Virus record (IMG/VR): IMGVR_UViG_3300006736_000118
Span: 1-21,011 of that record
Reading direction: 5' to 3' (one strand)
Origin: a virus
Length of the DNA: 21,011 nt
Below, piece after piece: positions 3,289 to 20,524 of the stretch. The translations under genes were made by a program, and so were the position numbers. Every line of letters starts with the position of its first letter. Position 1 is the first letter of the stretch. The notes under the pieces were generated by a model. It was given only the letters and a program-made list of their open reading frames with translations, was not told where the DNA came from and did not search any database.

Positions 3289-4203
3289 TTAAACAGCAGC
3301 GGTGCCGAGGACAATACCATGAACGTCGACGCCGACGCTATCCGCAACGTAACTCTCCATGGAGCACATGTTGCCGATGTCGTAGTTAGCCGCCGTCGTG
3401 GCCAAGCCACCAACGATCATGTTGTTGGCAAACATGCCGGTCGCATTGGCATCAAGCTCAACAGCCAAATCACCCGCCGTAGTGGAGCGGTTGATAATGG
3501 TATTGTTGGTGATGGTGGCACGAAGGATCTCATCGGCAGAACCTGGAGTCGTATTGTCCAGAGCGTGCTCGCCGAAATGACCGTCGATCACGTTGCCGTC
3601 GATAACCAGATCATCACAGCCATCAACCACGATACCGGAAGTAGAGCCGGCAGTCTGGAGAGACTTGATCAGGTTATTGCGGAGCTCGACGAACTGAGCG
3701 TCCGTGGCCGTGATATGAGTGGTGAACTGAGCCGTTGCATGAACAACAGTTTCGCACCCACTGACAAGACAGCCGTCCGCCGTGATGGTGATGGCGCTGG
3801 TGACGGTGTCATCAGTGTCTTCAAGCACGAAGCGGATGTTAGACATACCGGAGTTCGCAGCAGTCATGGCAACAGTGTAGTCGCCGCCGCCGACCGTGAG
3901 GGTCGGGCGAAGAGTGCCGCGGCCTAGTCCGATAACATGGACACCGATAACGTCCATGGTAACATTGGCCGCAAGGGTTTCGGCGTGACCGGGCTTGACC
4001 ATGATAATGTCACCATTGCTGGCCGTGCACCGGCCGATGGCATAATCGATTGTGGCCCAAGGACGTTGGCGAACACCTTCGCCGCTGTCAGAACCGCCAC
4101 CAGAGTCGACCCAGTAGATATTGCCGCCGTAAGTATTTACGATGGGGATACCGAGAATATCCACACCGTGAGCGAAACCATTTTGAAAACTAGAACCAGC
4201 CAT
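3289..4203 (-). CDS. Parallel beta-helix virion protein (pectate-lyase-like fold)
   Basis: This is a 304-residue protein. Residues 28-75 carry a phage-type entry module: YWVDS followed by Gly/Ser-rich sequence, then RPWATIDYAIGRC and GDIIMVKPGHAET. From about residue 80 the sequence becomes a right-handed beta-helix with short strands. Four rungs of the form (N/G)N-x-I occur at residues 176, 203, 233 and 260 (NNLI, GNVI, NNTI, NNMI), a spacing of 27-30, as in an asparagine ladder. No obvious lyase or hydrolase catalytic set is visible. The gene lies directly downstream of the major capsid gene, so a head decoration or short fibre is at least as likely as a tailspike depolymerase. The start is well supported by AAGGAAG about 6 nt ahead. 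Confidence 0.7.
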   Translation of the reverse strand: MAGSSFQNGFAHGVDILGIPIVNTYGGNIYWVDSGGGSDSGEGVRQRPWATIDYAIGRCTASNGDIIMVKPGHAETLAANVTMDVIGVHVIGLGRGTLRPTLTVGGGDYTVAMTAANSGMSNIRFVLEDTDDTVTSAITITADGCLVSGCETVVHATAQFTTHITATDAQFVELRNNLIKSLQTAGSTSGIVVDGCDDLVIDGNVIDGHFGEHALDNTTPGSADEILRATITNNTIINRSTTAGDLAVELDANATGMFANNMIVGGLATTAANYDIGNMCSMESYVADSVGVDVHGIVLGTAAV

Positions 4204-8043: not shown

Positions 8044-8157
8044 TTACGACTTGCTGGCAGCCTTCATGGCTTTGCCGTAACCTTTCTCAGCTCTGCCAAC
8101 ACCGCGAGTCTTGACTTCCTTCTTGACCGGTTTTTTGGCAGCTTTCTTCTTAGACAT
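8044..8157 (-). CDS. Very small Lys-rich protein, function unknown
   Basis: 37 residues from the ATG at 8157, chosen because a strong AAGGAAG site lies 6 nt ahead; a longer frame up to 8313 would overlap the neighbour by 131 nt. The sequence is MSKKKAAKKPVKKEVKTR followed by GVGRAEKGYGKAMK. The C-terminal R-G-x-G-x-A-x-x-G pattern resembles tiny basic phage proteins seen beside structural genes. It could bind DNA or be a minor virion component, but nothing in the sequence proves this. Confidence 0.55.
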   Translation of the reverse strand: MSKKKAAKKPVKKEVKTRGVGRAEKGYGKAMKAASKS

Positions 8158-8182
8158 GATCACTTCCTTTCCAAATCCAGAC

Positions 8183-8368
8183 CTATTCATTGCCGTCTTC
8201 GTCCGCCCGGTCTGCGATACGGCGAAGAGTGGTCGCAAAAGAAGTGTTGCCTTCTTTTGCAGCCAACGCGAATCGTCTTGGTGAAATCTCGGTATTGAGG
8301 TCTCGGCGCTCAAGATATTTCTTGGCGGCTCTCACCTCAGGTGCTGTGACGTTGCGGGACTCGGTCAT
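8183..8368 (-). CDS. Small charged protein, function unknown
   Basis: 61 residues, probably all helical: MTESRNVTAPEVRAAKKYLE, then a SPRRFALAAKEGNTSFATTL segment and an acidic tail. The ATG overlaps the TGA of the 340-residue gene as ATGA, so translation is probably coupled; no clear ribosome site is seen. The pattern P-R-x-F-A-x-A-A-K-E with a following S-F resembles small proteins of unknown role in other phage structural blocks. Confidence 0.5.
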   Translation of the reverse strand: MTESRNVTAPEVRAAKKYLERRDLNTEISPRRFALAAKEGNTSFATTLRRIADRADEDGNE

Positions 8369-9387
8369 CTTAAAACTGGGTTCGGATTGTTTGAAGCAAC
8401 TGGATCGCCGTGTGGTGGAATAACCAATTTATTTGGATTAGTTAGGTTATGAAACAACTTAGAAGCTATTTCATAACGAGCTAATTTCATTTCTTGATTG
8501 CGTCTTGCCGATAAGTACTCGGCTTCATCTCTTTCTCTTAGTGCGTTATCATACGTCATGTGGGGTTTTTTAAATGGATCACGAGAAGACATTGCTCGGT
8601 ACATTTTAGCAGCATGCCTGGCAGCTTTGTTTGATGGACCGATACCTGAAAGCAAACCTATTTTTTGAGACACATCTAGATTAAGCAGATCAGCTTTGCG
8701 ATTAGCTATTCTTTCTTCTGCAGGCCTAACAAGGCTCTCAAAGGTTTTAGCATCTTCCAAAGGATCCATATTATCTGTGGGTATAAGCATTCCAGCGCCA
8801 GCTAGTGCCCTAGATGCTAAGGCTTTTGCCATATACTTACCCACACCCGCAGCTGTCTTTCCTACACCACGAGCCACATCCCCAGGTCTAGATACTATTT
8901 CTTTTCCTAAATAGCGCAAAGCTCCTGGTAACCTCTTGGCCGCAGTGGCTCTTTTAGTGAGGTTATATTTGGCAGGACCCTGGCGATCGCCCATAGGCCT
9001 TCCAAGATTAAAAATATCTTTAGTGGTTGGCGCAAGTCGAGATCCGCCTCGAACTACAGTATTAAAAGCTGGTCTAATAATTGGATCAACAAAGTAAAGC
9101 AATGAGGCTAATTCTGCTGCACCAGACGGTAATCTACCGTAATCTCCTTCATATGTAGCCTGTTCAAAACCCGGCAACATTTCGTCCGCGAATCTTACTG
9201 CTTTACTAATGCCTGTTGGCCAACGCTCAGGGCGTCCTTGAGACCGACCTAATGCTCCTAATCCCCCTAGGTATGCAATAGATCCAGGAATAGAGAGTGG
9301 ATTAGCGATTTGACTTGCAAATTTACTTATGCCCGGGAAAACTCTTTTTCCTGGGCCGCTAAGTCTTAATAAATCATTATCTGCCAT
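8365..9387 (-). CDS. Basic Gly/Ala-rich protein, probable internal virion (ejection) protein
   Basis: 340 residues with no recognised family. The N-terminus is Pro/Gly-rich with hydrophobic, membrane-like stretches (IANPLSIPGSIAYLGGLGALG near residue 27). The middle (about 170-205) is basic with repeated VGKTAAGVGKYM-type helices, and the last 80 residues are charged helices. Start and stop are tied to neighbours: it overlaps the giant gene by 11 nt and the next small gene by 4 nt. It sits after the giant protein gene, where ejection proteins are expected. Base composition is AT-rich compared with the capsid and portal genes (one sampled 60-nt line holds about 23 G+C). Role is inferred from position and composition only. 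Confidence 0.55.
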   Translation of the reverse strand: MADNDLLRLSGPGKRVFPGISKFASQIANPLSIPGSIAYLGGLGALGRSQGRPERWPTGISKAVRFADEMLPGFEQATYEGDYGRLPSGAAELASLLYFVDPIIRPAFNTVVRGGSRLAPTTKDIFNLGRPMGDRQGPAKYNLTKRATAAKRLPGALRYLGKEIVSRPGDVARGVGKTAAGVGKYMAKALASRALAGAGMLIPTDNMDPLEDAKTFESLVRPAEERIANRKADLLNLDVSQKIGLLSGIGPSNKAARHAAKMYRAMSSRDPFKKPHMTYDNALRERDEAEYLSARRNQEMKLARYEIASKLFHNLTNPNKLVIPPHGDPVASNNPNPVLR

Positions 9388-12300
9388 CGTCTTCCTGCAT
9401 TTGGTTATAAATCTCGGCAGCTCCTACACCAATTGGAGGCAATACGTAGCGACTAAAACCTGCTCCATACTTCTTCTTTAAAGCATAGTAACGTTTTTTC
9501 ATCTCCGGTGTAATCTTTATTGCCCAGTGGGTCTTATTTGGGACGGGGATTTTTAGGTCAGGCTGCGCGGCTGTTGGTTGAGGCGTTCTACCCGGCGCTG
9601 GTTGGCCGGCAAGACCGGTTACGTCACCAAGGGCTGGAGTCCGCAGCATCTGACTAAGTATTGAAAGTTCATTTCTGAGTTGTTCTTCAAGCTCATTAAC
9701 ACGTGCTTGATTTGGTACATCTATTGCGTTATCGCGCTGCCCGTCAAGCGCCTCAATAACCATAAATCTTTGGTTTATTTCCTGCGCCGGGTGATCACGC
9801 AGTAATTGACCGGTAAGGGTATTATTTGACAGCAGATGATTAAGAAGTCGAGTCAACCTCAGTCCGGGGGCTCCGGTCTCATCAGGCCAATTCAGCTGTG
9901 TATTAATTACGTCTGCAAGGCGCGTATAATCCTCTTGTGCGGCGGCTGGGATCTGAGTTTGAGGTGTCGCTTCAATCGCCTGGTACGGCATTTGTTCAGC
10001 CGCAGGCGGAGTAACCGTGGCCCCGACATTGAGTTCATTACGCAAAGTGTTTAAAACCTCGAGTATCTCTTCTTGGATCTCATCCTGCCGCAACAGCATT
10101 CCTTGGCGTTCATCAAGACTTAAACTGTCATCTGCAAGATCTGCGATAACTTCACCTCTGTTTGTGTCAAGAGTGAATAACCGCTCTATTGCTCCACGCA
10201 CAGAAGGAAACGGGTGCTCGAGCAAGTGACTATTTGCAATTCCCAGGTTGGCTGGGAATAAAAGGGTGTTAATAACTCTGTTTATGTCGTCAACAAAGGC
10301 GCCGGCACCAAAAGCTCCTCCTTCACGTTCAAAGAATTCGTCGATAAGATCTGCGAGGTTGCGGTCAAAATCTGCACGCTCGATGGCATCATTTGCCTGA
10401 ACAGGCGCCGGCGCTAATGAGTCACGATACCTTAGCAACGCCTCTCTCAGTTGACCTAAAGCACCCGGAATACGGTCTTGAGCTTCTGGAAATCCAGGGT
10501 CATCTAATGACTCAACCCACCCATTTAAATTGTCCCAAGCAAGTGTAACACCATCGTCGGTGTGGTCATTCAAATACCGCATGACGTCCTGCTGCTCGAG
10601 CAAGCCACCCATTTCGTCGAAAATGGTAGCATCATTTTGGCCGGCTTGCATAGCCTCAACACGCTCGATGACATCATTTGCCTGTTGCTCTTCGCGAACA
10701 GCTGGAATATTGGGGTCAGGTGGAACGTCTGGTACTAATTGCGGCTGAGCAAGTCCTTGCTGATATCGAGTTATTTCATTGCCAAGTATCGCGTTGTTCA
10801 ACTCATCGCGGATGATTTCAAAATTGTCAACGACTTCGAAAACGACGCCGGCGTGCCAGACGTCGTAGTTATTGGCGCCTGTAATATCATCGATGATTGA
10901 TTGGGCAGAAGCCACGGCTTCATTCGACATGTTTGGAAGACTTAAGACGTCATGGGCAGCACGTAGCATGTCGGTAGGATCCGTGGCATCGAATTCATCT
11001 AGAATTGAAGATACTACTTCGGCGGTTGAAGCCGTGGTGGCATTACCCGTCAGCCAGGGAGCTGGACGCTCCATCTCGCTACCAAGACCGCGGGATATGC
11101 GCCTGAGGTTGTGCAGCATTATCTGGTCATGCTCTGGTCCCCAGTCTTCAAGACCGAGATCATCCCATAAATTTTCTATATCCTGAGCAGCAATTCTAGA
11201 CTCTTCAGGCATATTCGTATCAGCCCGCATTCTGCGAGCAAAGTTAAGTATCTCAGCATCAGTTAATTCTTCAGGATCAATTGGCCCAGGCCGCTCGTAT
11301 AAGTCAACCATGCGGTCGACGGCGCGGCGCTCGGCCTCGAGCAATGTCCTGTGGGCTATGGTGCCTGGCGCTATATCCAATTGGGGGATTTGCCGCTCGT
11401 ATAAGTCAAGTCCGCCAGTGTCTTGGTTTTGAGGATCTAAGGCCTGGTTGCGAAGAGTGTCCATGCGCTGCCGTAAGCTGCTGATCAGATTTGGAATTTC
11501 ATCCATGGCAGTATTAACTATATTTTCGGCTTCCTCGTCAGTCAATCCGTCAGTATCCACCTCCAAATTACCTACTTGGTCGATTAAATCTTCAGACAGA
11601 CGCCTGACCTGCTGATCGTAGTGACCAAGTAGATGTTGATAATCGAAGTCATCAAGATAAGCCTGGTTATCATCCATGCTTTCAAGCTGGATCAATGCGT
11701 CCTGATCCTGTGTGCTCCAGCCAGGGGTCATCCAGCCTTGTGGACCTTGTAAAGTCCTGCTGTTTTGGAGGGTATGGATAATGTTCTCCAAACTATGGCG
11801 CACAACACTGCGGTTTTCTTGGTGCTGGTGGTAGTAGGCATTTGCATATTCGTTCGTTATGTTGCGCGCTACCGTTCTAACAGCATTCGGCAGACTAGTG
11901 TCTGCTGCTATTCCTTCTGCCCACTCAAATGTACCTTGCGGAGTCGTCATAAGTTCAGTGGCTCTTTCGATTATACTATCGAAGTTACCCGCTGCCTGCA
12001 ATCTTTCCTGCCTCACCTGCACGCTCAGCGGCACATCGATACCTTCAGCGGTCAGTAGGCTTGTGAGCAGGTTGCGGCGCTCTTCAGGCTCCAGGACACG
12101 CCACTCAGGTGCATCTGCAAATATGTGTGAAGCATGGTCTCCTGTCTCGATATTAAACTCGCGCATAAAGGCTCTAAGCATACCGTAAGTGGTACGCTGG
12201 CTGCTAATTGCAGTCTCGAAAGCACGACCCAAGGATCCCAAGTCAGGAGCACTTCGTGTCAACTCCACATCTTTAAACAGGTCAACCAAACGGTTTTGCA

Positions 12301-14668
12301 GATCTGTCCTAACAAAAAATGAGTCTCTACCTGTATATTCAGGGAAGATTTCGACAAGATCACCACCGCCAAAGCGACCAACATTATCCATATAAGTAGG
12401 GTATGCTATTAATGCCTCCAAATAATATAATACTTGGCGCGCTTCGCCGACTTTATGATCAGGTAAGCGTTCAGAAATTGCCTGTGAAACCTGATCAGTC
12501 ATGCCACGCATGAACGCACCATTCAACCGCAGATCCTCGTCCGACATGTCGTTCATCTCTACCAATGACGATGGGACACCTGAGTTGGTAACTCTGTCGG
12601 CTTCGCGCAGCACATCGAGGCCACGTTGCTGCTCAGCCTCGGCTGCACGGGTACGCTCTAATTCACGCCGTTGCTCTTCAGCTAATTTCTCCGCAGCAAT
12701 CTTTGCGTCATAATCAGCCTGAGCCTTGGCCTTCAAGCCTTCAGGACTGAACTGCTCCATCCCCATTTGAGGGTCGAGCTGGAAGACATCTTTTTTCTTG
12801 TTGCCGCCATATTGGCCCACGATCTTCTCAGCATTCTTCTTGAACTGCTGGTCGTAGGTAACGCGCTTGCCTTTATAGCCATAGGTGAAGCTGCTGTGGC
12901 CATCCTCAGGCAGGATCGTAGATGTGTAGTCTTCGCCTTCTGGATGACCACCTTCAGAAATCGAGCCGTCCTGCTCTTCCACACGTGTATTATCTTCAAA
13001 CCTTTTGAAAATTATTGCGGCTGATTTTTCGTCAAAGTCCAGTTCGATATCTTTCCAGGTAGCCGGCTTGCCACGGTTAATTAGCCCCTGTGTATCACGG
13101 TGACTCATACCTTCGAGCGCTTCAGGTGTCATGGTGTGACCAATAAAGTTCCACAACGGCTCACCATTGCCTTCATTGGCATACGTAATATAGTATTCAA
13201 GGCTGCGAACGTCATTCAGATCCATGCTGCGCCAACGTTCAGCCTGCGCAGTACCACCGGTCCAGATCAAGTAGTCATCACCGTCCTCGATAGCGTTTGA
13301 AAGCTGCTTCTTCAACTCAACCAGCCCATAGTTCCGTTTGAACGGTCCTTTAGGTTGGATGTGGCGTTCGTTATCCCAAAACTCGAAATTACGGCGATCC
13401 TTAACCATCATGCCGCTGCTATCAAAAAAGTCAAGATCGTTGGCAGGTGTTTCAGAGTCTAGATTATGAGTAATACCGAAGCCAGAAAGCTTATCCGTAG
13501 CTTCTGTAAACTTTTTATTTGCTGCCGCAACCTGTTCATCAGTCGATTTTGGCATATTCCAATGAGCATCGTTGGCTTCTTTCAACCAGTGCTGTTCCTC
13601 ATGAGACGCAGGTCTAACCTCCTGCTCAACGCCCTCATAATCATAGCCTTCAGGCCACTTCTTGACGTCACCGTAATGATGACCACCAGCCTTGTTATAC
13701 TGGATCAACAAGTCGTTCTGGATTTCATCTACGTTCCGGACCCGAGTACCGTCAGGCAGGACACGGCGGTCCCCCTTGCTGAAGCTCACAAGATCCTCGC
13801 CGGCATCATCGAAATGAGGTGAGGTGATGCGCCGTGGTTTACTGGCTTCTAGTCTTTCTCGCTCAGGGAACAGCTCCATGTACCGAGGCAGCTGGTCCAT
13901 GCTGATGCCCTGCTGCAGCAAAGTGTTGACCTGATGCACACCATACTTATTTGACAGGCGTATATACTCAGCCACATCAGGAGGAGTAGCATGCCGATAC
14001 TTTGTCAGCGACTCCTCGTACTCAATGCTCTGTTCTGGACGATATAGGTAATGCTGCTCAAGCGGAGCTCCTGGCATATTTGAAGTTAAATCGCTTTTAT
14101 TTAATTTAAGGTCTCCAACTAAATTAAGGGCATCATTCAACGATGGCATCACTGAAATGAGGTGATCAGGATCGTTTATCTCTTCTAAAAAAGTTCTGAC
14201 TTCATTTCTAAGTGCAAGCTCAGGTGTGGACACTGTATCAGGATCAGCTCCCGACCAAAGATCGTAGTCAAATGATAATGGTCTATCAATCGGGCCGGAG
14301 GTAGCAGATCTAGGGCGCGGCAACCTGTTCAGGACGCCGGTGCGCTGAATATCTCTATACACCGGCAGCATTTTCTCTGACGCCTGCGTCTCCACATCCC
14401 ACTGAGGTGCCTCTTCAGAGCCGAGGTAATTGAGGATATCCTGCCTTGTCACAGGACCTTGGGCACGAGCAAAGAAGTCAGGCAAGCCAGAAAGATCGTA
14501 CTCCTCAGCCGTGATAGGGAACCGCATGCCCTCAGTCTTGAGGGTTGCACCCTTGGTCAGACGAGAAAGCCACTCCTCAACGGGCAACGCCTTCTTGACG
14601 TCCATCCCACGGAGTAGCTGCTCCATAGGTGAGAACAGATAGTTGCCTAACCGCCGTTTATACACCAT
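9377..14668 (-). CDS. Giant polyvalent-type virion protein (1763 residues)
   Basis: The start ATG at 14668 overlaps the preceding stop by 11 nt; a longer frame to 14731 lacks support and would overlap more. Domains: residues 11-86 hold the motif FSPMEQLL followed by GVT/EEYDLSGLPDFF-like and VTRQDILNYL segments, known at domain boundaries of large phage polyvalent proteins. Residues about 281-622 hold a second recognised module: DEIQND at 314-319, GPFKRNYG at 441, LIWTGGTAQAERW at 467 and a basic helix ending GQYGG at 622, corresponding to the EIQSD, PFK and WTTG-Q-x-x-R signatures of that family. Residues 645-690 are a coiled coil. Residues about 700-1680 are acidic helices with degenerate repeats, and the C-terminus is basic (KKRYYALKKKYG). 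No lysozyme or protease motif is seen. Such proteins are thought to enter the host with DNA; here that is inference. Confidence 0.75.
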   Translation of the reverse strand: MVYKRRLGNYLFSPMEQLLRGMDVKKALPVEEWLSRLTKGATLKTEGMRFPITAEEYDLSGLPDFFARAQGPVTRQDILNYLGSEEAPQWDVETQASEKMLPVYRDIQRTGVLNRLPRPRSATSGPIDRPLSFDYDLWSGADPDTVSTPELALRNEVRTFLEEINDPDHLISVMPSLNDALNLVGDLKLNKSDLTSNMPGAPLEQHYLYRPEQSIEYEESLTKYRHATPPDVAEYIRLSNKYGVHQVNTLLQQGISMDQLPRYMELFPERERLEASKPRRITSPHFDDAGEDLVSFSKGDRRVLPDGTRVRNVDEIQNDLLIQYNKAGGHHYGDVKKWPEGYDYEGVEQEVRPASHEEQHWLKEANDAHWNMPKSTDEQVAAANKKFTEATDKLSGFGITHNLDSETPANDLDFFDSSGMMVKDRRNFEFWDNERHIQPKGPFKRNYGLVELKKQLSNAIEDGDDYLIWTGGTAQAERWRSMDLNDVRSLEYYITYANEGNGEPLWNFIGHTMTPEALEGMSHRDTQGLINRGKPATWKDIELDFDEKSAAIIFKRFEDNTRVEEQDGSISEGGHPEGEDYTSTILPEDGHSSFTYGYKGKRVTYDQQFKKNAEKIVGQYGGNKKKDVFQLDPQMGMEQFSPEGLKAKAQADYDAKIAAEKLAEEQRRELERTRAAEAEQQRGLDVLREADRVTNSGVPSSLVEMNDMSDEDLRLNGAFMRGMTDQVSQAISERLPDHKVGEARQVLYYLEALIAYPTYMDNVGRFGGGDLVEIFPEYTGRDSFFVRTDLQNRLVDLFKDVELTRSAPDLGSLGRAFETAISSQRTTYGMLRAFMREFNIETGDHASHIFADAPEWRVLEPEERRNLLTSLLTAEGIDVPLSVQVRQERLQAAGNFDSIIERATELMTTPQGTFEWAEGIAADTSLPNAVRTVARNITNEYANAYYHQHQENRSVVRHSLENIIHTLQNSRTLQGPQGWMTPGWSTQDQDALIQLESMDDNQAYLDDFDYQHLLGHYDQQVRRLSEDLIDQVGNLEVDTDGLTDEEAENIVNTAMDEIPNLISSLRQRMDTLRNQALDPQNQDTGGLDLYERQIPQLDIAPGTIAHRTLLEAERRAVDRMVDLYERPGPIDPEELTDAEILNFARRMRADTNMPEESRIAAQDIENLWDDLGLEDWGPEHDQIMLHNLRRISRGLGSEMERPAPWLTGNATTASTAEVVSSILDEFDATDPTDMLRAAHDVLSLPNMSNEAVASAQSIIDDITGANNYDVWHAGVVFEVVDNFEIIRDELNNAILGNEITRYQQGLAQPQLVPDVPPDPNIPAVREEQQANDVIERVEAMQAGQNDATIFDEMGGLLEQQDVMRYLNDHTDDGVTLAWDNLNGWVESLDDPGFPEAQDRIPGALGQLREALLRYRDSLAPAPVQANDAIERADFDRNLADLIDEFFEREGGAFGAGAFVDDINRVINTLLFPANLGIANSHLLEHPFPSVRGAIERLFTLDTNRGEVIADLADDSLSLDERQGMLLRQDEIQEEILEVLNTLRNELNVGATVTPPAAEQMPYQAIEATPQTQIPAAAQEDYTRLADVINTQLNWPDETGAPGLRLTRLLNHLLSNNTLTGQLLRDHPAQEINQRFMVIEALDGQRDNAIDVPNQARVNELEEQLRNELSILSQMLRTPALGDVTGLAGQPAPGRTPQPTAAQPDLKIPVPNKTHWAIKITPEMKKRYYALKKKYGAGFSRYVLPPIGVGAAEIYNQMQEDDGR
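10377..10684 (-). repeat. Repeat marker pair inside the giant protein gene
   Basis: A 23-nt word reading CGCTCGATG, then A or G, then CATCATTTGCCTG occurs at 10377-10399 and 10662-10684 with one mismatch. The offset is 285 nt, exactly 95 codons. It encodes QANDVIER at residue 1329 and QANDAIER at residue 1424. This fixes the period of the helical repeat in the C-terminal part of the protein. Confidence 0.7.
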
Positions 14669-15644
14669 CGTAAAGAGACTCCCAATCAGGATCCTCGACG
14701 AACAGGCCGATGGTCCAACACAATGGCTCACCGATCCATCTGATCAGCTTACCACCAAGACCTGATCCACCGTCGATCGACTTGGCCCGTGCCTCAGCTA
14801 TCGGAGCCACAGCGGGACCGATCCACTTATGCTTGCGCATCAATCTGACAAACGGCACAGCCCACCAGCGATAACCACGGAGCGTGATTGGACTCATATG
14901 CTCAACATGATTGGCGCTGGTGTAATACAGATCTGGGTCCATGAGCTTGTTGTCGACAAGATAGGTGCAAATAACCCAGCCACCGCCACCGCCGCCTCCA
15001 CCTTCGCCGTCAACGTCACCAATCACGTCCTCAGCCATCTGAGCATCTTCCTGTGATTGCTGGTCTTGGCCTGCAAAATCTGCATCAGATTGACTGCCAA
15101 TTGAATAGTCACGGCCCTGAGTCTGATTAGTAGCATACATTCGGCCAGTGACCGTTGGTTGGTTAATTCCTTGAGGATCTCCGATGGTCGACTTGCTGAG
15201 GTCAGACCAACCTTCAGACGCAGGATCGACGTTCTTCCATGTCTGATCGTAAGGTGACCGGCCAAATTTACCAAACGTAAGATTGCTCTCCAAGGCATCT
15301 TTATAGCTGATGGGGTTATTATAATTTGTATAGAGCCCGCGCGCCTGGTTGACATCGGCTTTGGTACCAGCGGCTGCTCCAAGAACCCCAAGGCCTGGAA
15401 CACCGGTCACGGCTCCTATGCCGGTGCCCAGTGCTCCCAGTGCCTGACCATAGTTAGAGAAGTTCTGAGACATGTTAGTACCTTGCGAAACACCAGGACC
15501 AGCTACGTTTCCGCCGTCATCAGAGCTCCAGCCACCATAAAGATTCGGATCATTAGGATCGATCGGCTTACCAGGCAGTGAACCATACTGTGACCCAAAC
15601 TGTGGAACATACCGCGAAGCGTATCGAAAACCGTACTGTGGCAT
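14658..15644 (-). CDS. Two-part virion protein with Gly-rich hydrophobic region and Gly linker
   Basis: This is a 328-residue protein. Residues 1-20 are Tyr/Arg/Gln-rich. Residues 66-93 are a Gly/Ala/Leu/Val stretch (ALGTGIGAVTGVPGLGVLGA) that could insert into a membrane. A polar region follows, then a run of Gly at 213-222 (DNA near 14974-15014). The C-terminal domain (223-315) begins VICTYLVDNKLMD and continues with GYRWWAVPFVRLMRKHKW and GEPLCWTIGLF, a module I recognise at the ends of phage virion proteins but without a known activity. The ATG abuts the upstream stop and uses an AGGAGG site encoded by the last Glu codons of that gene. A role in DNA ejection is plausible given the neighbours. 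Confidence 0.65.
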   Translation of the reverse strand: MPQYGFRYASRYVPQFGSQYGSLPGKPIDPNDPNLYGGWSSDDGGNVAGPGVSQGTNMSQNFSNYGQALGALGTGIGAVTGVPGLGVLGAAAGTKADVNQARGLYTNYNNPISYKDALESNLTFGKFGRSPYDQTWKNVDPASEGWSDLSKSTIGDPQGINQPTVTGRMYATNQTQGRDYSIGSQSDADFAGQDQQSQEDAQMAEDVIGDVDGEGGGGGGGGWVICTYLVDNKLMDPDLYYTSANHVEHMSPITLRGYRWWAVPFVRLMRKHKWIGPAVAPIAEARAKSIDGGSGLGGKLIRWIGEPLCWTIGLFVEDPDWESLYDGV

Positions 15645-16355
15645 TTATTCCTCCTCGTCTAAGAATAACGGAGCTGCGGCTGGGAGTTTGAAGAGATCGT
15701 TGAAGCGACCTACTCTTTTGGGTTCAATCCAGAAATCATATTCGCTGTATATATTTGGATTATAATCTGGGTCGTCAAACCTGGGTCTGATTTCTTTCCT
15801 AAAACTTAAATCAAGCGGGATGCTTTCCACTCCAGCGTTTAACGCTGCAGCAGACCGATGTCTGGCCGAGTGTGAAGACACTGCTAAATCAGACCCAGGT
15901 TCAGCACCACCTCTGAAAGAGTCAAAACCTAGCCTAGGAGCATCATTAAATCCAGGTGGTTGTTCGCCTAGCATAGATATATAATCCTCAACTGTGGGTG
16001 TATCGTATTCATCGACACGTTCACCAGGGAATAAGTCAGCCCAGTTTTTTTCTCTTTTTAGTACTGCACCAAGATACTCAATATTGTTAATAGACCATGG
16101 GTCATCCATATTAAGCGGAAAAGCTAGATCTAGAAAGTTTTTTGGTGTAGTTATATATGTTTCTCCCCGATAATCAGGACTTAGTTGGTATGCTAATTCT
16201 TTAGGAGTAATCATGCCTAGGACACCTGGATACTTACGTTCGATATCTATCGCCTTACGCACAACAGAACGGTCTGCGCCTAGGTTACGCAAAGCACCTA
16301 CTGCCTCACGGCCGAACTGTTGAAGCCATTGTGGATTAGGTTTTAGAACCGGCAC
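15645..16355 (-). CDS. Stand-alone protein with a ParB/Srx-like H-x-x-R-H-R motif
   Basis: 236 residues from a GTG at 16355, preferred over a TTG at 16370 because AAGGAGG lies 5 nt before the GTG and inside the end of the portal gene. The frame overlaps the portal by 20 nt. An N-terminal helical part is followed by an ITTPKNFLDLAFPLN segment and, near residues 165-190, V-S-SHSARHRSAAALNAGVESIPLDL. In phage polyvalent proteins a similar segment reads H-x-GRHR-x-x-AL-x-x-G-x-x-x-IPV and is compared to ParB/sulfiredoxin-like nucleotide-binding folds. Here the Gly is Ala. The gene is strongly AT-rich (three sampled 60-nt lines hold 20-22 G+C each, about 33-37 percent). Catalytic activity is not established. 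Confidence 0.6.
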   Translation of the reverse strand: MPVLKPNPQWLQQFGREAVGALRNLGADRSVVRKAIDIERKYPGVLGMITPKELAYQLSPDYRGETYITTPKNFLDLAFPLNMDDPWSINNIEYLGAVLKREKNWADLFPGERVDEYDTPTVEDYISMLGEQPPGFNDAPRLGFDSFRGGAEPGSDLAVSSHSARHRSAAALNAGVESIPLDLSFRKEIRPRFDDPDYNPNIYSEYDFWIEPKRVGRFNDLFKLPAAAPLFLDEEE

Positions 16356-18975
16356 CAGGGCCTCCTTCAATCTTCAACGTGTTGGCCTTCTCAGCTGCAT
16401 CACCCATAGCCTCAGCCACCTTCACGTCGGCATTGGCCTCGGCTTCTACCTGATTGATCTGAGCCTTGGCCTGCATCTCCATGAACTTGGCTTCAATGGC
16501 GGCTTCCGCCTTGTTCTGAGCGATTGATATCTCAGACATTGCCTTGGCCTGCATGAGCTGCATCTCTTGGCTAAACCTCATGGCATTTGTCTCTTGATCG
16601 ATAGCAGCCTCGGCCTGCTTGAGCTGGACCTGACCAGCCGTCTTGACCTGATCCACCTCCATGGCCTTAGCAGCCTTGACCTCGGCGATCTGAACATCAG
16701 ACGCTGCCTTGACCTGCTTGGCCTCAACGTCAGCCGTCGCCTTAATCTTAGTTGCCTCGACCGCTGCCTGAGCCTTAGCAACCTCAGCCTGAGCGATAGC
16801 ATCCATCTCGCCACCTTCGCCCTCACCGCCAGCACCAGGAGGCGGTGGACCCATACCGATGGGAGCCTGCTGCACGTGCATGGCTGCAGCCTCGCTGATC
16901 TGTGCATCGATGATCGGCGAGATTTCCTCGAATTCGTCATCAGGATCTGAGAAGTTAGGCACGTTAGGCAACTGTGCCTGCAACCGCTGCTGCATTTGCA
17001 CGCGGTAATAAAGAGCCATGTGTTCGGCGCGATGAGCCATATAAGCACCGAGCCACATTTGCTGAGCCTGAGGAGGCAACGCACCGAACCACGTATCGAG
17101 CACCACCATATGAGCCTGATGGTCCTGATCGATGAACGTACGGATCGGCTTGCCAGTCATGATGGCAATATTCTCGGCAATAGGATCAAGCCTGACTGCT
17201 TCCTTCGGCTCGATCAACACCTTCTCATAGTTCGGCACACGCAGCGCCTCATACACCAGCTTATGGGCTTCATACTGATCATGCAGGTCAGGAGCATCCT
17301 TGGCCATCTGCAATGTAGCCTGTGCCTGACCGACCCGCTGTGTGGTTGAGAAGATGTTCGGGTCAGACTGTGGTATAACATCGACCCGCTCGTCAAAGTC
17401 AGCACGCCGAATGACGCGGTCCTCACCAGCCACCTGATACGGATACTCATCATCGAGATGACGACCGTTCAGCTTGGCAATGAGCTTGAATTCCTGTGAT
17501 TGAGACCAATGCAACCGTTTGTGGATGGCTGAGAAGATCTTGCTGCCCTCTTCCAACAGAGCAACAGTCGTACCAACCGGCGTATTCTGATTAGCGTCAG
17601 CGATATTCATCTCAATCGTATTGGCGAACCGACGACCAGCATCAACAATGAAACCAAGCAGCTGGAACAAGACAGCCGATGGCTCCTTGAACGTTAACGG
17701 CATGATAGCCTTGCGAATATCGTCGACCGGCGCATCAATGTCAGGAAATTCGCCAGGTCCGATTTCAATCTCGCCGCCGTCCACACGGCCCTTGAGCTTC
17801 AAGCCGCCTTGCAGATTGGCATACTGAGCGGAATCGAGCAAAGCACGCAATGCGCCGGTAGCGGCATCATTCAAACCACCGATCGCATGGTACAGTCCCC
17901 AACCATGGAAGCCGAGGCCCGGCAGGAACTTATAGCCGATGTACCATGTTTCACGGTTCTGGTTCTCTTCGTCATCCTCGTCCCAGTTCCGGCATATACG
18001 AGAAACATTGCCGGTTTGAGGGTGAACCGTAATGGTAAACGGTCTGGCAATGCCATCAGGATCTGAATGTTTATCACCTGGCATATCGTAATCGACACAC
18101 TGCTCGATTAAAATAGTCTGACCGTCTTCAGGATCAGGCGACTGAGTGATGCCTTGGATCTTATTGACCACATCAGTCGTATATGTATCCTCTTCCGTCA
18201 CCACATCGGTAAGCGGGTCGTCGATCTTGACGTAAAAGTCCTTTTGCACGTATTTGGCGTACGTGTTTGGATCCATACGGAGAATGTGGTTGATCCGTTT
18301 CACTGTTGACAGGTCTCTGGTGTCATATTCATGCACAACCAAGTCGTCAACAGTGACGTACCGAATAGTTGTACGGCCTAGAACAGGATCATACCAAACT
18401 TTACGGAATATCTGGCCGACAAGCGGATGATGAAACAACATCTGATCCAGATCAGGGAAATACTCAGGCATCTCCTCCTGGATTTGATAGTTCATATAGT
18501 TTTTAACGCGGTCGTTTTGATCGCTTAGCTCATCAGTAACCTGGCCCATTACTTTCGAATTGACCGGACCGGCCGACGGATACAGCTCAGCGATGGCTCG
18601 TGCCTGATACTGAGTAGCAGCTTCGTTGATCAACGGATGGCGGACTTCGCTCAAGCCCCTAATGGAGCGAGCGTCGTTGTCAGTGACTGAATCGTCGGTA
18701 CTGAACATCTTCAGTCCCTTTTCGTACAACGACTCCCAATCAGACCTCGATGCCTTGTCAGCCAAGAAGCCTTCCATCACATCCATGCCAATCTTCTTCA
18801 GCTCTTTTTCTGTGAAGTCGTCTACAAGGTTCTTGTAATGGTCGAGAGGATCAACGTCTGGTTCAATCTCACCCTCAGGGTCGATGATCTCAATCGATCC
18901 GTCAGGTAGGTTGACGACGTTTTCGCCCATCTCTTCGGGGTTGGGAACTTGGAAGTCTGCTGCGTATTCGGCCAT
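16336..18975 (-). CDS. Portal protein (P22-like) with long helical C-terminal tail
   Basis: This 879-residue protein forms the dodecameric ring through which DNA enters and leaves the head. The N-terminus is acidic (to about residue 60). Core signatures include RHPLINEAATQYQARAIAEL at 112-131, FHGWGLYHAIGGLNDAATGALRALLD near 356-381 and a family hallmark at 464-481 (NTPVGTTVALLEEG, then SKIF). Residues 696-722 are a Pro/Gly/Glu linker. Residues 723-865 are an unbroken helix-forming region rich in Ala, Lys, Gln and Glu with 11-residue periodicity, likely an internal barrel as in the P22 portal. The ATG follows AGGAGA at 6 nt, which overlaps the terminase stop. The protein is longer than the P22 portal (about 725 residues). 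Confidence 0.9.
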   Translation of the reverse strand: MAEYAADFQVPNPEEMGENVVNLPDGSIEIIDPEGEIEPDVDPLDHYKNLVDDFTEKELKKIGMDVMEGFLADKASRSDWESLYEKGLKMFSTDDSVTDNDARSIRGLSEVRHPLINEAATQYQARAIAELYPSAGPVNSKVMGQVTDELSDQNDRVKNYMNYQIQEEMPEYFPDLDQMLFHHPLVGQIFRKVWYDPVLGRTTIRYVTVDDLVVHEYDTRDLSTVKRINHILRMDPNTYAKYVQKDFYVKIDDPLTDVVTEEDTYTTDVVNKIQGITQSPDPEDGQTILIEQCVDYDMPGDKHSDPDGIARPFTITVHPQTGNVSRICRNWDEDDEENQNRETWYIGYKFLPGLGFHGWGLYHAIGGLNDAATGALRALLDSAQYANLQGGLKLKGRVDGGEIEIGPGEFPDIDAPVDDIRKAIMPLTFKEPSAVLFQLLGFIVDAGRRFANTIEMNIADANQNTPVGTTVALLEEGSKIFSAIHKRLHWSQSQEFKLIAKLNGRHLDDEYPYQVAGEDRVIRRADFDERVDVIPQSDPNIFSTTQRVGQAQATLQMAKDAPDLHDQYEAHKLVYEALRVPNYEKVLIEPKEAVRLDPIAENIAIMTGKPIRTFIDQDHQAHMVVLDTWFGALPPQAQQMWLGAYMAHRAEHMALYYRVQMQQRLQAQLPNVPNFSDPDDEFEEISPIIDAQISEAAAMHVQQAPIGMGPPPPGAGGEGEGGEMDAIAQAEVAKAQAAVEATKIKATADVEAKQVKAASDVQIAEVKAAKAMEVDQVKTAGQVQLKQAEAAIDQETNAMRFSQEMQLMQAKAMSEISIAQNKAEAAIEAKFMEMQAKAQINQVEAEANADVKVAEAMGDAAEKANTLKIEGGPGAGSKT
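16361..16367 (-). promoter_or_regulatory. Ribosome site that fixes a GTG start
   Basis: AAGGAGG on the minus strand, located inside the final codons of the portal gene, 5 nt before the GTG at 16355. It argues that the next gene begins with GTG rather than the TTG at 16370, and that its translation is tied to the portal. Confidence 0.6.
16381..16809 (-). repeat. Thirteen 11-residue repeats at the portal C-terminus
   Basis: Portal residues 723-865 divide into 13 consecutive units of 11 residues with no gaps, for example KATADVEAKQV, KAASDVQIAEV, KAAKAMEVDQV, KTAGQVQLKQA. Position 1 is usually Lys or Glu, position 2 usually Ala, and positions 6, 8 and 11 are mostly hydrophobic or Ala. An 11-residue period is the mark of right-handed coiled coils or extended amphipathic helices. 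The matching DNA is a GC-rich, nearly periodic stretch with a 33-nt rhythm. Confidence 0.8.
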
Positions 18976-18985
18976 TCAATATCTC

Positions 18986-20524
18986 CTAACCATACAGCGG
19001 TTTCTTAACTCGCTTGACGCTCAAAGCCGCATCTCCGTCATCATCTTCAGGATGTGGCAGCAACCACATATTGCGCAGCCTGATCCAGGCCTGAGTGCAC
19101 GTGTCAACCAAGTCAGCGCCATCACCAGCTGGGAATATAGCACATTTCTCAATCAATGTATCCGCCCAGCGTCGATTTGGGTGCCATACCATACCAGACT
19201 CAAGCAACGCCGAGGATGAATGAGCACGAGCCACCTTATCACGATCTGGGCTGTATTCTATACAGGGAATATTAGCCATGCGCAAATCCTGTATCAACGA
19301 CTGACCTGATGCCTTCTTCTCAATCAACACAGCATCCGGCTGCCATTCAAGATACGACTCCTTGGCTAGCCGCCTGAGCGTCGGGTACGGCACATGATCA
19401 CGCCACATCTCGAGGATCATGCAGTTGAGGTGTCCCTTATGCTCGAACACGCCCCATGTGGTGCGAGCTGAGAATGAATTGTCATCCTTCTCGGAATAAG
19501 CAGTGTCCCACGACTGTAAGATATAATCGAACTCAGGCAGCAGCAAATTGCCCTCCTGATCCTGCTCATCCCAACACTGCCACCAGCTAGCACGCAAGAT
19601 ACCGCCACCTTTGGGGCTTGGTCGCTGTTGCAACTGACCAGCTGATGCATACGTGCCCATGCTGTTTTTAAGCCGATCGAGCGACTCCTTGTCAAACTGA
19701 TCAGGCCACAACAGCTGACCCTCCACCTTGCGTGGATCCTTGAAACCGAGCGACGACTTAACAGGGAACGGGAACTTCTTCTCATATTCGGCCGGCAAAA
19801 CGAGATGGTCCCAGTTCTCGTACTCTTCCTTGATGATATGACCTGACAGGTCTCGCTCGTGGATACGCTGCATAATGACGATAAAGGCGCCGGTCTTCGG
19901 GTTGTTGAGACGTGACTGCATAGCGTGGTCCCACCATTCCAGCACACCCTCTCGAGTGACGCTGGACTCGGTCTCGGCCACGTTGTGCGGATCATCGATC
20001 ATGATGATGTCGCCGCCCTCACCAGTCAGTGCTCCACCGACCGATGTAGCCAGCCGATAGCCGGACTTATCATTCTCATAGCGACCTTTTTGGTTCTGAT
20101 CACCTGTCAGTTCGAACTTATGGCCCCATCGTTCCTGATACCACTTTGACTGGATCAAGCGGCGACACTTGAGGTTGTCTCTCACAGCCAGCGGTCCGGC
20201 ATACGATGCAGCGAGGAACTGGATGGTTGGGTTCTGGATCCACACCCATGTTGGAAACGATACTGAGACACCAAGGCTCTTCATATGACGGGGTGGGATG
20301 TTGATCAGCAGCCGACGTATCTCGCCAGTGTACACAGCCTCAAGATGCTCAGCGATGGCTTGAATGTGCCAACCGTCTACGAACTCCTTGCCCGGCTCCA
20401 TGGTTGGCCAAGCCTGCTGTATGTAATCATGAAGGCTCATCTCAGCCAGCTCGCGCTGCACCTGCTGATACAAGGCCGACGGGTCCGTGTTGTCGAGCAT
20501 GGACTGGAGAGCTGCTTGGGTCAT
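18986..20524 (-). CDS. terL: Terminase large subunit (ATPase/nuclease)
   Basis: This 512-residue protein is the packaging motor. The ATPase part has a Walker A-like NIPPRHMKS at 75-83, Walker B IIMIDD at 173-178 and a coupling strand TGAFIVIMQR at 211-220. The RNase H-like nuclease part shows WDTAYSEKDDNSFSA (Asp340), AVLIEKKASGQSL (Glu402) and DGADLVDTCTQAW (Asp471/Asp474), the usual acidic triad. Length and order are typical. The ATG overlaps the upstream TGA as ATGA and no strong ribosome site is seen, so translation is likely coupled. The stop overlaps the portal ribosome site. No small terminase subunit was recognised in the window; it may lie upstream. Confidence 0.95.
   Translation of the reverse strand: MTQAALQSMLDNTDPSALYQQVQRELAEMSLHDYIQQAWPTMEPGKEFVDGWHIQAIAEHLEAVYTGEIRRLLINIPPRHMKSLGVSVSFPTWVWIQNPTIQFLAASYAGPLAVRDNLKCRRLIQSKWYQERWGHKFELTGDQNQKGRYENDKSGYRLATSVGGALTGEGGDIIMIDDPHNVAETESSVTREGVLEWWDHAMQSRLNNPKTGAFIVIMQRIHERDLSGHIIKEEYENWDHLVLPAEYEKKFPFPVKSSLGFKDPRKVEGQLLWPDQFDKESLDRLKNSMGTYASAGQLQQRPSPKGGGILRASWWQCWDEQDQEGNLLLPEFDYILQSWDTAYSEKDDNSFSARTTWGVFEHKGHLNCMILEMWRDHVPYPTLRRLAKESYLEWQPDAVLIEKKASGQSLIQDLRMANIPCIEYSPDRDKVARAHSSSALLESGMVWHPNRRWADTLIEKCAIFPAGDGADLVDTCTQAWIRLRNMWLLPHPEDDDGDAALSVKRVKKPLYG

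Follow-up and report, generated by a model that had tools for sequence, protein, structure and literature searches.

A giant cysteine-free phage protein with a polyvalent-type domain pair and a large, predicted helical insertion: a candidate ejected cargo protein

Introduction

The closest described counterparts of the protein treated here are, on the one hand, the polyvalent proteins of phages and conjugative elements (Iyer et al., 2017; PMC5512222) and, on the other hand, T7 gp16 and the N4 vRNAP (gp50), for which ejection is established. T7 gp16 consists largely of alpha-helices and folds again once it has left through the portal (PMC8954989), and the N4 vRNAP features a mostly helical C2 domain of about 110 kDa without known homologues (PMC12633501).

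Here, we describe a giant phage gene (positions 9377..14668). It is located in the IMG/VR record IMGVR_UViG_3300006736_000118, a phage fragment whose complete 21,011 bases form the window. An original prediction had viewed the gene product as a polyvalent-type protein joining two modules to a degenerate helical repeat array, with no catalytic domain evident and possibly injected into the host.

Results

The main genes of the window are all encoded on the minus strand, as are all features located below. The terminase gene TerL (18986-20524) and the portal gene (16336..18975; PHROG 1216, E=3e-22, and tblastn matches to CRP-901/902) are followed by genes for a 241-aa protein (15645..16370) and a 328-aa protein (14658..15644), the latter overlapping the start of the giant gene. 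The giant gene itself is an open ATG frame of 1,763 codons encoding a cysteine-free protein with a net charge of -129, and its end is overlapped by the gene for a basic, cysteine-free protein of 340 aa (8365..9387). Between the latter and GroES lies a very basic (+17) ORF of 89 aa (8044-8313), which likely starts at the internal ATG of MSKKKAAKKPVKK..., and GroES is followed by a putative scaffold (337 aa), two small genes and the major capsid protein (5231-4326). The giant gene is found among the late virion genes, directly after the portal and two small genes and ahead of GroES, scaffold and capsid. The capsid gene is followed by additional genes whose role is uncertain and by a tail-fibre-like gene truncated at the end of the record; one of the proteins encoded there (304 aa, 3289-4203) gave weak matches to parallel beta-helix families (Disaggr_assoc, NosD) and could possibly represent a spike or decoration protein.

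Via the portal gene, a single relative of the giant protein was reached in IMGVR_UViG_3300025112_000019, a contig of 51.9 kb. The giant frame runs off the end of this contig, and the part encoded (891 aa) is 52-56% identical over residues 1-823 of the giant protein. Apart from its breaks, which fall inside the giant gene at one end and in a tail-fibre-like gene at the other, this contig appears to be a near-complete relative of the window phage (L100-L102). The neighbouring proteins are conserved there as well. The 241-aa protein (56% identity) is cysteine-free and carries an HxxRHRxxA...G motif near its C-terminus, which we take to be reminiscent of a motif in other phage polyvalent proteins. 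The 328-aa protein (65% identity) features a glycine-rich middle followed by a strongly conserved C-terminal WVICTYL...RGYRWWAVPFVRLMR region and found no match in the libraries. For the 340-aa protein, a scan for relatives aimed at the C-terminal halves of other giant proteins returned none.

Judged by portal and capsid, the window phage is closest to the Roseobacter phages CRP-901/902 (portal 43-45%, capsid 67-68% identity), followed by DSL-LC04, the Pelagibacter phages HTVC023P/027P, Caulobacter phages and Planktothrix phages. These related phages are podoviruses or feature podovirus-type gene sets (PMC10149686). Across this lineage, the large genes in the stretch from TerL/portal to GroES vary: DSL-LC04 encodes a PcfJ-like protein, CRP-901 LysM and nuclease proteins, HTVC027P proteins of 483 and 892 aa, and ct7L0027 a peptidase M15 together with a protein carrying the module described below, while CRP-901/902 have no giant-type gene between portal and GroES. 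Such variable content is easier to reconcile with exchangeable cargo than with a fixed structural part.

According to the original prediction, residues 11-86 and 281-622 represent two polyvalent modules. In whole-protein searches (Pfam, PHROGs, NCBIfam, PDB sequences, phage tblastn and an IMG/VR scan), nothing beyond the relative was found; no curated polyvalent (LPD/PolyVal) domain was detected in the giant protein, Pfam matches up to E<10 were spurious, and no PHROG family matched at E<0.1. A consensus of the second module ('EEVQSDW...WTTGEQQAER') served solely as bait to fetch real homologues, on which all subsequent tests are based; its matches were proteins encoded by ct7L0027, HTVC028P and Dolichospermum phage Dfl-JY45. 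An alignment of their modules led to more than 500 stretches in IMG/VR that encode the module, and 80 of these loci were retained; in bacterial and archaeal genomes, it was detected in at least 125 stretches.

Profiles were then built from 80-100 unrelated phage proteins, with the giant protein and its relative left out. The module HMM (95 sequences) matched residues 274-481 (E=2.6e-9, 34.5 bits; best of 1,000 shuffles 3.9 bits, best reversed ORF 6.9), the N-domain HMM matched residues 52-83 (E=1.2e-4, 19.8 bits; best control 7.5), and a combined HMM of both reached 44.8 bits (E=1.4e-12). On this basis, the N-terminal domain was assigned to residues 11-93 (14390..14638) and the front part of the module to residues 255-630 (12779..13906). 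Of 84 carriers among the homologues, 81 have the N-terminal domain immediately ahead of the module. At the level of sequence profiles, both N-terminal domains of the giant protein are thus shown to be homologous to a domain pair of phage proteins. The two predicted modules consequently hold up with HMMs built from homologues and not with Pfam, PHROG, NCBIfam or PDB sequence models, and for residues 281-622 in particular a profile match is literally absent from the curated libraries, but present once profiles derive from real relatives.

To locate the end of the module, four sub-profiles (A-D) were placed separately on the giant protein, each with 2,000 shuffles as control. Motif A (HF...DR...EIQxD) found its best place at residues 282-320 (13709..13825) and motif B (PF...LK...A...G.D.l.WT.G..QAeR) at residues 441-479 (13232..13348; 18.2 bits), with none of the shuffles as good in either case. 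The best place of motif C (GxxGkrvtYD......k..gqyGG), at residues 599-622 (12803..12874), was weak, as 120 of the 2,000 shuffles scored as well; Y605 and D606 correspond there to the invariant Y and D of the homologue consensus A4. Motif D, comprising the last strand, was found together with the C-terminal tail (HWAIKITPEMKK...GAGFSRYVLPPIG...) at residues 1713-1763 (9380..9532); its sub-HMM reached 9.0 bits at residues 1713-1725, matched by 0 of 2,000 shuffles, and the last strand reads HWAIKITPEM.

The order A-B-C-D is the same in the giant protein and in the homologues, whereas the spacing from C to D is 1,091 residues compared with a median of about 15 in 83 homologues, in which it measures at most about 100, one unreliable case aside. 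Many short homologues end 11-45 residues past motif D with a tail like ITPEMK..v.KGQPLF.a.P.ig; the giant protein ends 38 residues past it, and its tail is similar. The position of motif D argues that the roughly 1,090 unmatched residues represent an insertion inside the module, and motif order, spacing and shared tail together let the giant protein read as a cargo protein of about 670 residues with about 1,090 residues inserted before the last strand. Alternatively, motif D could represent a free-standing C-terminal signal instead of the last strand of the module.

The insertion (about 1,075-1,090 residues; 9557..12778) is acidic, and that about 1,000 C-terminal residues would match nothing was borne out in all libraries searched. 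The relative runs about 250 residues into it before its contig ends and contains a local match to giant residues 982-1059 at a shifted place; the insertion thus seems to be shared, with its length changing fast. An AlphaFold2 (AF2) prediction of residues 623-1763, based on two sequences, contained helices throughout and no strands, at a pLDDT of 41.9 that allows no fold to be claimed. It includes a long charged helix (residues 642-696, 12581..12745; pLDDT about 40-60), which had been read as a coiled coil. As to the proposed degenerate helical repeat array, the all-helical character was reproduced by this low-confidence model, and the repeats turned out to be weak: the only notable internal match pairs residues 922-986 (11708..11905) with residues 1149-1212 (11033..11224) at a self-alignment score of 55, reached by 24 of 1,000 shuffles (p=0.024). 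We also considered whether the acidic insertion could mimic DNA and abandoned this idea, since its charge of -8.7 per 100 residues resembles that of the portal protein (-7.4).

Hundreds of proteins from phages and prophages contain the domain pair. A Pfam scan of the carriers revealed ART-PolyVal, LPD3, LPD23, LPD37, LPD38, SLT and MuF_C as well as InPase, ddrB-ParB, PBECR1, PBECR5 and KfrB domains on the same polypeptides, and both the N-terminal domain and the module are present in a 5,000-aa 'LPD23 domain-containing protein' encoded on a Pseudomonas aeruginosa plasmid. The gene of the latter (L270; NZ_CP115292.1, 67300-82302) lies on a plasmid of 278 kb with an integrase gene nearby. This co-occurrence with Pfam polyvalent domains marks the pair as a polyvalent-protein module without a Pfam model and justifies the designation 'polyvalent-type', as the pair is common to the Pfam-polyvalent carriers and the LPD23 protein. 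Despite its wide distribution, no model or entry covering the module was found in Pfam, NCBIfam or the PDB. PHROG 7348 ('endolysin', 2,564 positions) matches 62 of 65 module homologues (for the homologue L141 at positions 1806-2106), but not the giant protein. This family reaches the module only via its giant multidomain profile (H54, H55), and its name stems from another part of that profile; an 'endolysin' or 'lysin' annotation of module proteins is therefore probably wrong for the module part.

For the compact homologue L141, AF2 yielded a confident model from a 65-sequence alignment (pLDDT 89.3, pTM 0.84) with the order b-a-a-b-b-a(helical insert)-a-b-a-bbb-a-a-b-b-a. Even before the fold search, a GNAT-like fold had been put forward as an idea. 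With Foldseek, no PDB entry matched significantly (best E=0.04, DnaK); GNATs, including 3n7z, 1vkc, NatD and Naa50, were the commonest fold and accounted for 35 of the 50 top listed matches by hand count, all with E>=0.04. The viral structure library gave 29 significant matches, some of them named polyvalent, ART-PolyVal or lytic-transglycosylase, with NAT_SF/GNAT-named proteins outside the module family among the next matches. Unlike in GNATs, no canonical CoA-binding R/QxxGxG/A motif could be seen on inspection of the stretch from the EIQxD strand to the motif B helix in either the giant protein or the A4 consensus, and a helical insertion separates the central hairpin from the next helix. 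The model suggests that the module is probably a GNAT-like alpha/beta domain. The former statement that no catalytic domain is evident is accordingly revised to a module which resembles the GNAT fold in a homologue model, with matches short of significance.

Among the invariant residues of the module, the giant protein has kept the YxE tyrosine 263 and glutamate 265, H285, E315, Q317, D319, P442, Y605 and D606, while N, H, R, S, A, W and M positions are altered (e.g., N to D, H to F, R to K and M to K). As these residues are partly changed, the copy in the giant protein could be inactive. An enzymatic part would likely reside in this recognised module rather than in the unmatched region, which the original prediction had considered as the effector of a possible anti-host or anti-defence factor. 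The confident fold and the short conserved set (Y, E, H, ExQSD, YD) make the activity of the module directly testable.

Neither the 1,763 residues of the giant protein nor the 891 of its relative include a cysteine, where 8-14 would be expected in the giant protein. With residues treated as independent, the chance of this is 3e-4 for the giant protein and 4e-6 for both at the window rate of 0.47%, and 1e-6 for the giant protein at a yardstick rate of 0.77%, the average of 29 other proteins of T7, P22, N4 and P1. The near-absence of cysteine extends to the 80 phage carriers (window 9377-14668 and loci L110-L189, L271-L274 for the observation as a whole), which contain 0.018% cysteine, whereas 135 further long ORFs from these loci, not all of which need be true genes, contain 0.64%. 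In 66 of the 80 there is none at all, including all 36 that are shorter than 900 aa, and carriers from bacterial and archaeal genomes contain 0.045%.

Among proteins taken as ejected on the basis of record annotations and general knowledge, T7 gp15 and gp16, P22 gp7, gp20 and gp16, and N4 gp50 (3,500 aa), gp51 and gp52 are likewise cysteine-free, and P1 DarA, DdrB and DarB contain 1, 2 and 9 cysteines, respectively. Several slot proteins of related phages are also cysteine-free, namely the LysM and nuclease proteins of CRP-901, HTVC027P gp41/42 and HTVC028P gp33-35. However, the T7 scaffold, the N4 capsid, the P1 tape measure and several non-cargo genes of the window lack cysteine as well, so that the mark is not specific. 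Its being common to the giant protein, most carriers and the ejected proteins of T7, P22 and N4 supports ejection indirectly. The likely reason, as we infer, would be the unfolded passage through the portal together with the oxidising periplasm. In a literature search over a limited set of papers, none was found to state a link between cysteine and ejection; others may exist.

Discussion

Taken together, we consider it likely that the giant protein is an internal virion (cargo) protein of a CRP-901/HTVC023P-like podovirus, which is ejected, GNAT-like and carries its helical mass looped out of the module. Accordingly phrased as a sequence of events, the protein would be made late, packed into the head and ejected, at least partly unfolded, via the portal and the short tail, and would refold in the host envelope or cytoplasm. 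The N-terminal domain and the module (residues ~11-630 and ~1705-1740) correspond to the unit of which whole cargo proteins of 620-790 aa consist in other phages, and the module is probably a GNAT-like alpha/beta enzyme domain whose substrate would be a host molecule. The approximately 1,090 helical residues, looped out between its last two strands, would most likely help in packaging, in crossing the envelope or in contacts with DNA or membrane, roles that are also presumed for the large helical parts of T7 gp16 and N4 vRNAP. That the protein may be injected, as originally predicted, agrees with the late-gene position beside the portal and with the complete absence of cysteine, of which the latter is the feature shared with T7, P22 and N4.

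A different, though rather unlikely, explanation would be a structural part of the ejection machine of the T7 gp16 or N4 type, whose helices form or line a conduit through the envelope and whose module is degenerate or merely structural. The cysteine-free, helix-rich character known from T7 gp15/16 and N4 vRNAP, the homologue-free helical domain of the latter (PMC12633501) and the altered invariant residues of the module would all be in line with such a part. However, the module proteins of many phages comprise only 620-790 aa and lack the helical mass, CRP-901/902 do without such a gene between portal and GroES, and the giant protein shows no sequence or profile similarity to known ejection proteins (T7 gp16, P22 gp16, N4 gp50).

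An intracellular late protein, e.g., an assembly factor or scaffold-like helper that is not ejected, appears improbable: the gene adjoins those of GroES, scaffold and capsid, and scaffolds and some capsid proteins are likewise cysteine-free, but cargo-type domains (ART, MuF_C, PBECR) accompany the module elsewhere and the slot content differs greatly among related phages, unlike what is expected for an essential assembly factor. A tape measure or tail adaptor, for which the long, helical protein and the cysteine-free P1 tape measure could speak, is rejected as most improbable, since no tail profile matched (best tail match insignificant, E=0.33), the relatives are podoviruses or feature podovirus-type gene sets (PMC10149686) and the N-terminal modules belong to polyvalent cargo proteins.

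Returning to an ejected cargo protein as the favoured reading, such polyvalent-type cargo is already known, and the surprise lies in a module that is very widespread yet uncatalogued, in the helical mass inserted into it and in a family almost devoid of cysteine. In its broadest form, which we put forward tentatively and hold to be doubtful as a whole, the N-terminal domain and the module would constitute an uncatalogued, very widespread family of ejected GNAT-like enzymes in phages, prophages and mobile elements, the giant protein would have a helical domain of about 120 kDa looped out of the last hairpin, and the absence of cysteine would be a general mark of unfolded portal passage. Should the cysteine rule be borne out on a larger, unbiased set, sequence alone could suffice to select candidate ejected proteins from metagenomic phage genomes.

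Among the described systems, the giant protein shares with polyvalent proteins its late-gene position and the module, and differs from them in the lack of a curated polyvalent domain, in having one probable enzymatic module rather than several and in the approximately 1,090 unmatched residues inside it. Its nearest module-bearing counterparts are UOF80349.1 of Caudoviricetes sp. ct7L0027 (848 aa), which is encoded at the corresponding portal-to-GroES position of a related phage, and the cysteine-free HTVC028P gp34 (954 aa), which lies among internal virion proteins; both are half the size and have no insertion between motifs C and D. With T7 gp16 and N4 vRNAP, in contrast, it has in common a very large size, the absence of cysteine, an enzymatic part (here a probable one) next to a large helical part (here by low-confidence prediction) and a gene alongside virion genes of a short-tailed phage; large size, helix content and lack of cysteine are properties measured here rather than a textbook criterion. 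The enzymatic part of those two proteins is a transglycosylase or an RNA polymerase instead of a GNAT-like module. By analogy, the helical parts of T7 gp16 and the C2 domain of N4 vRNAP may offer the closest working parallel to the insertion.
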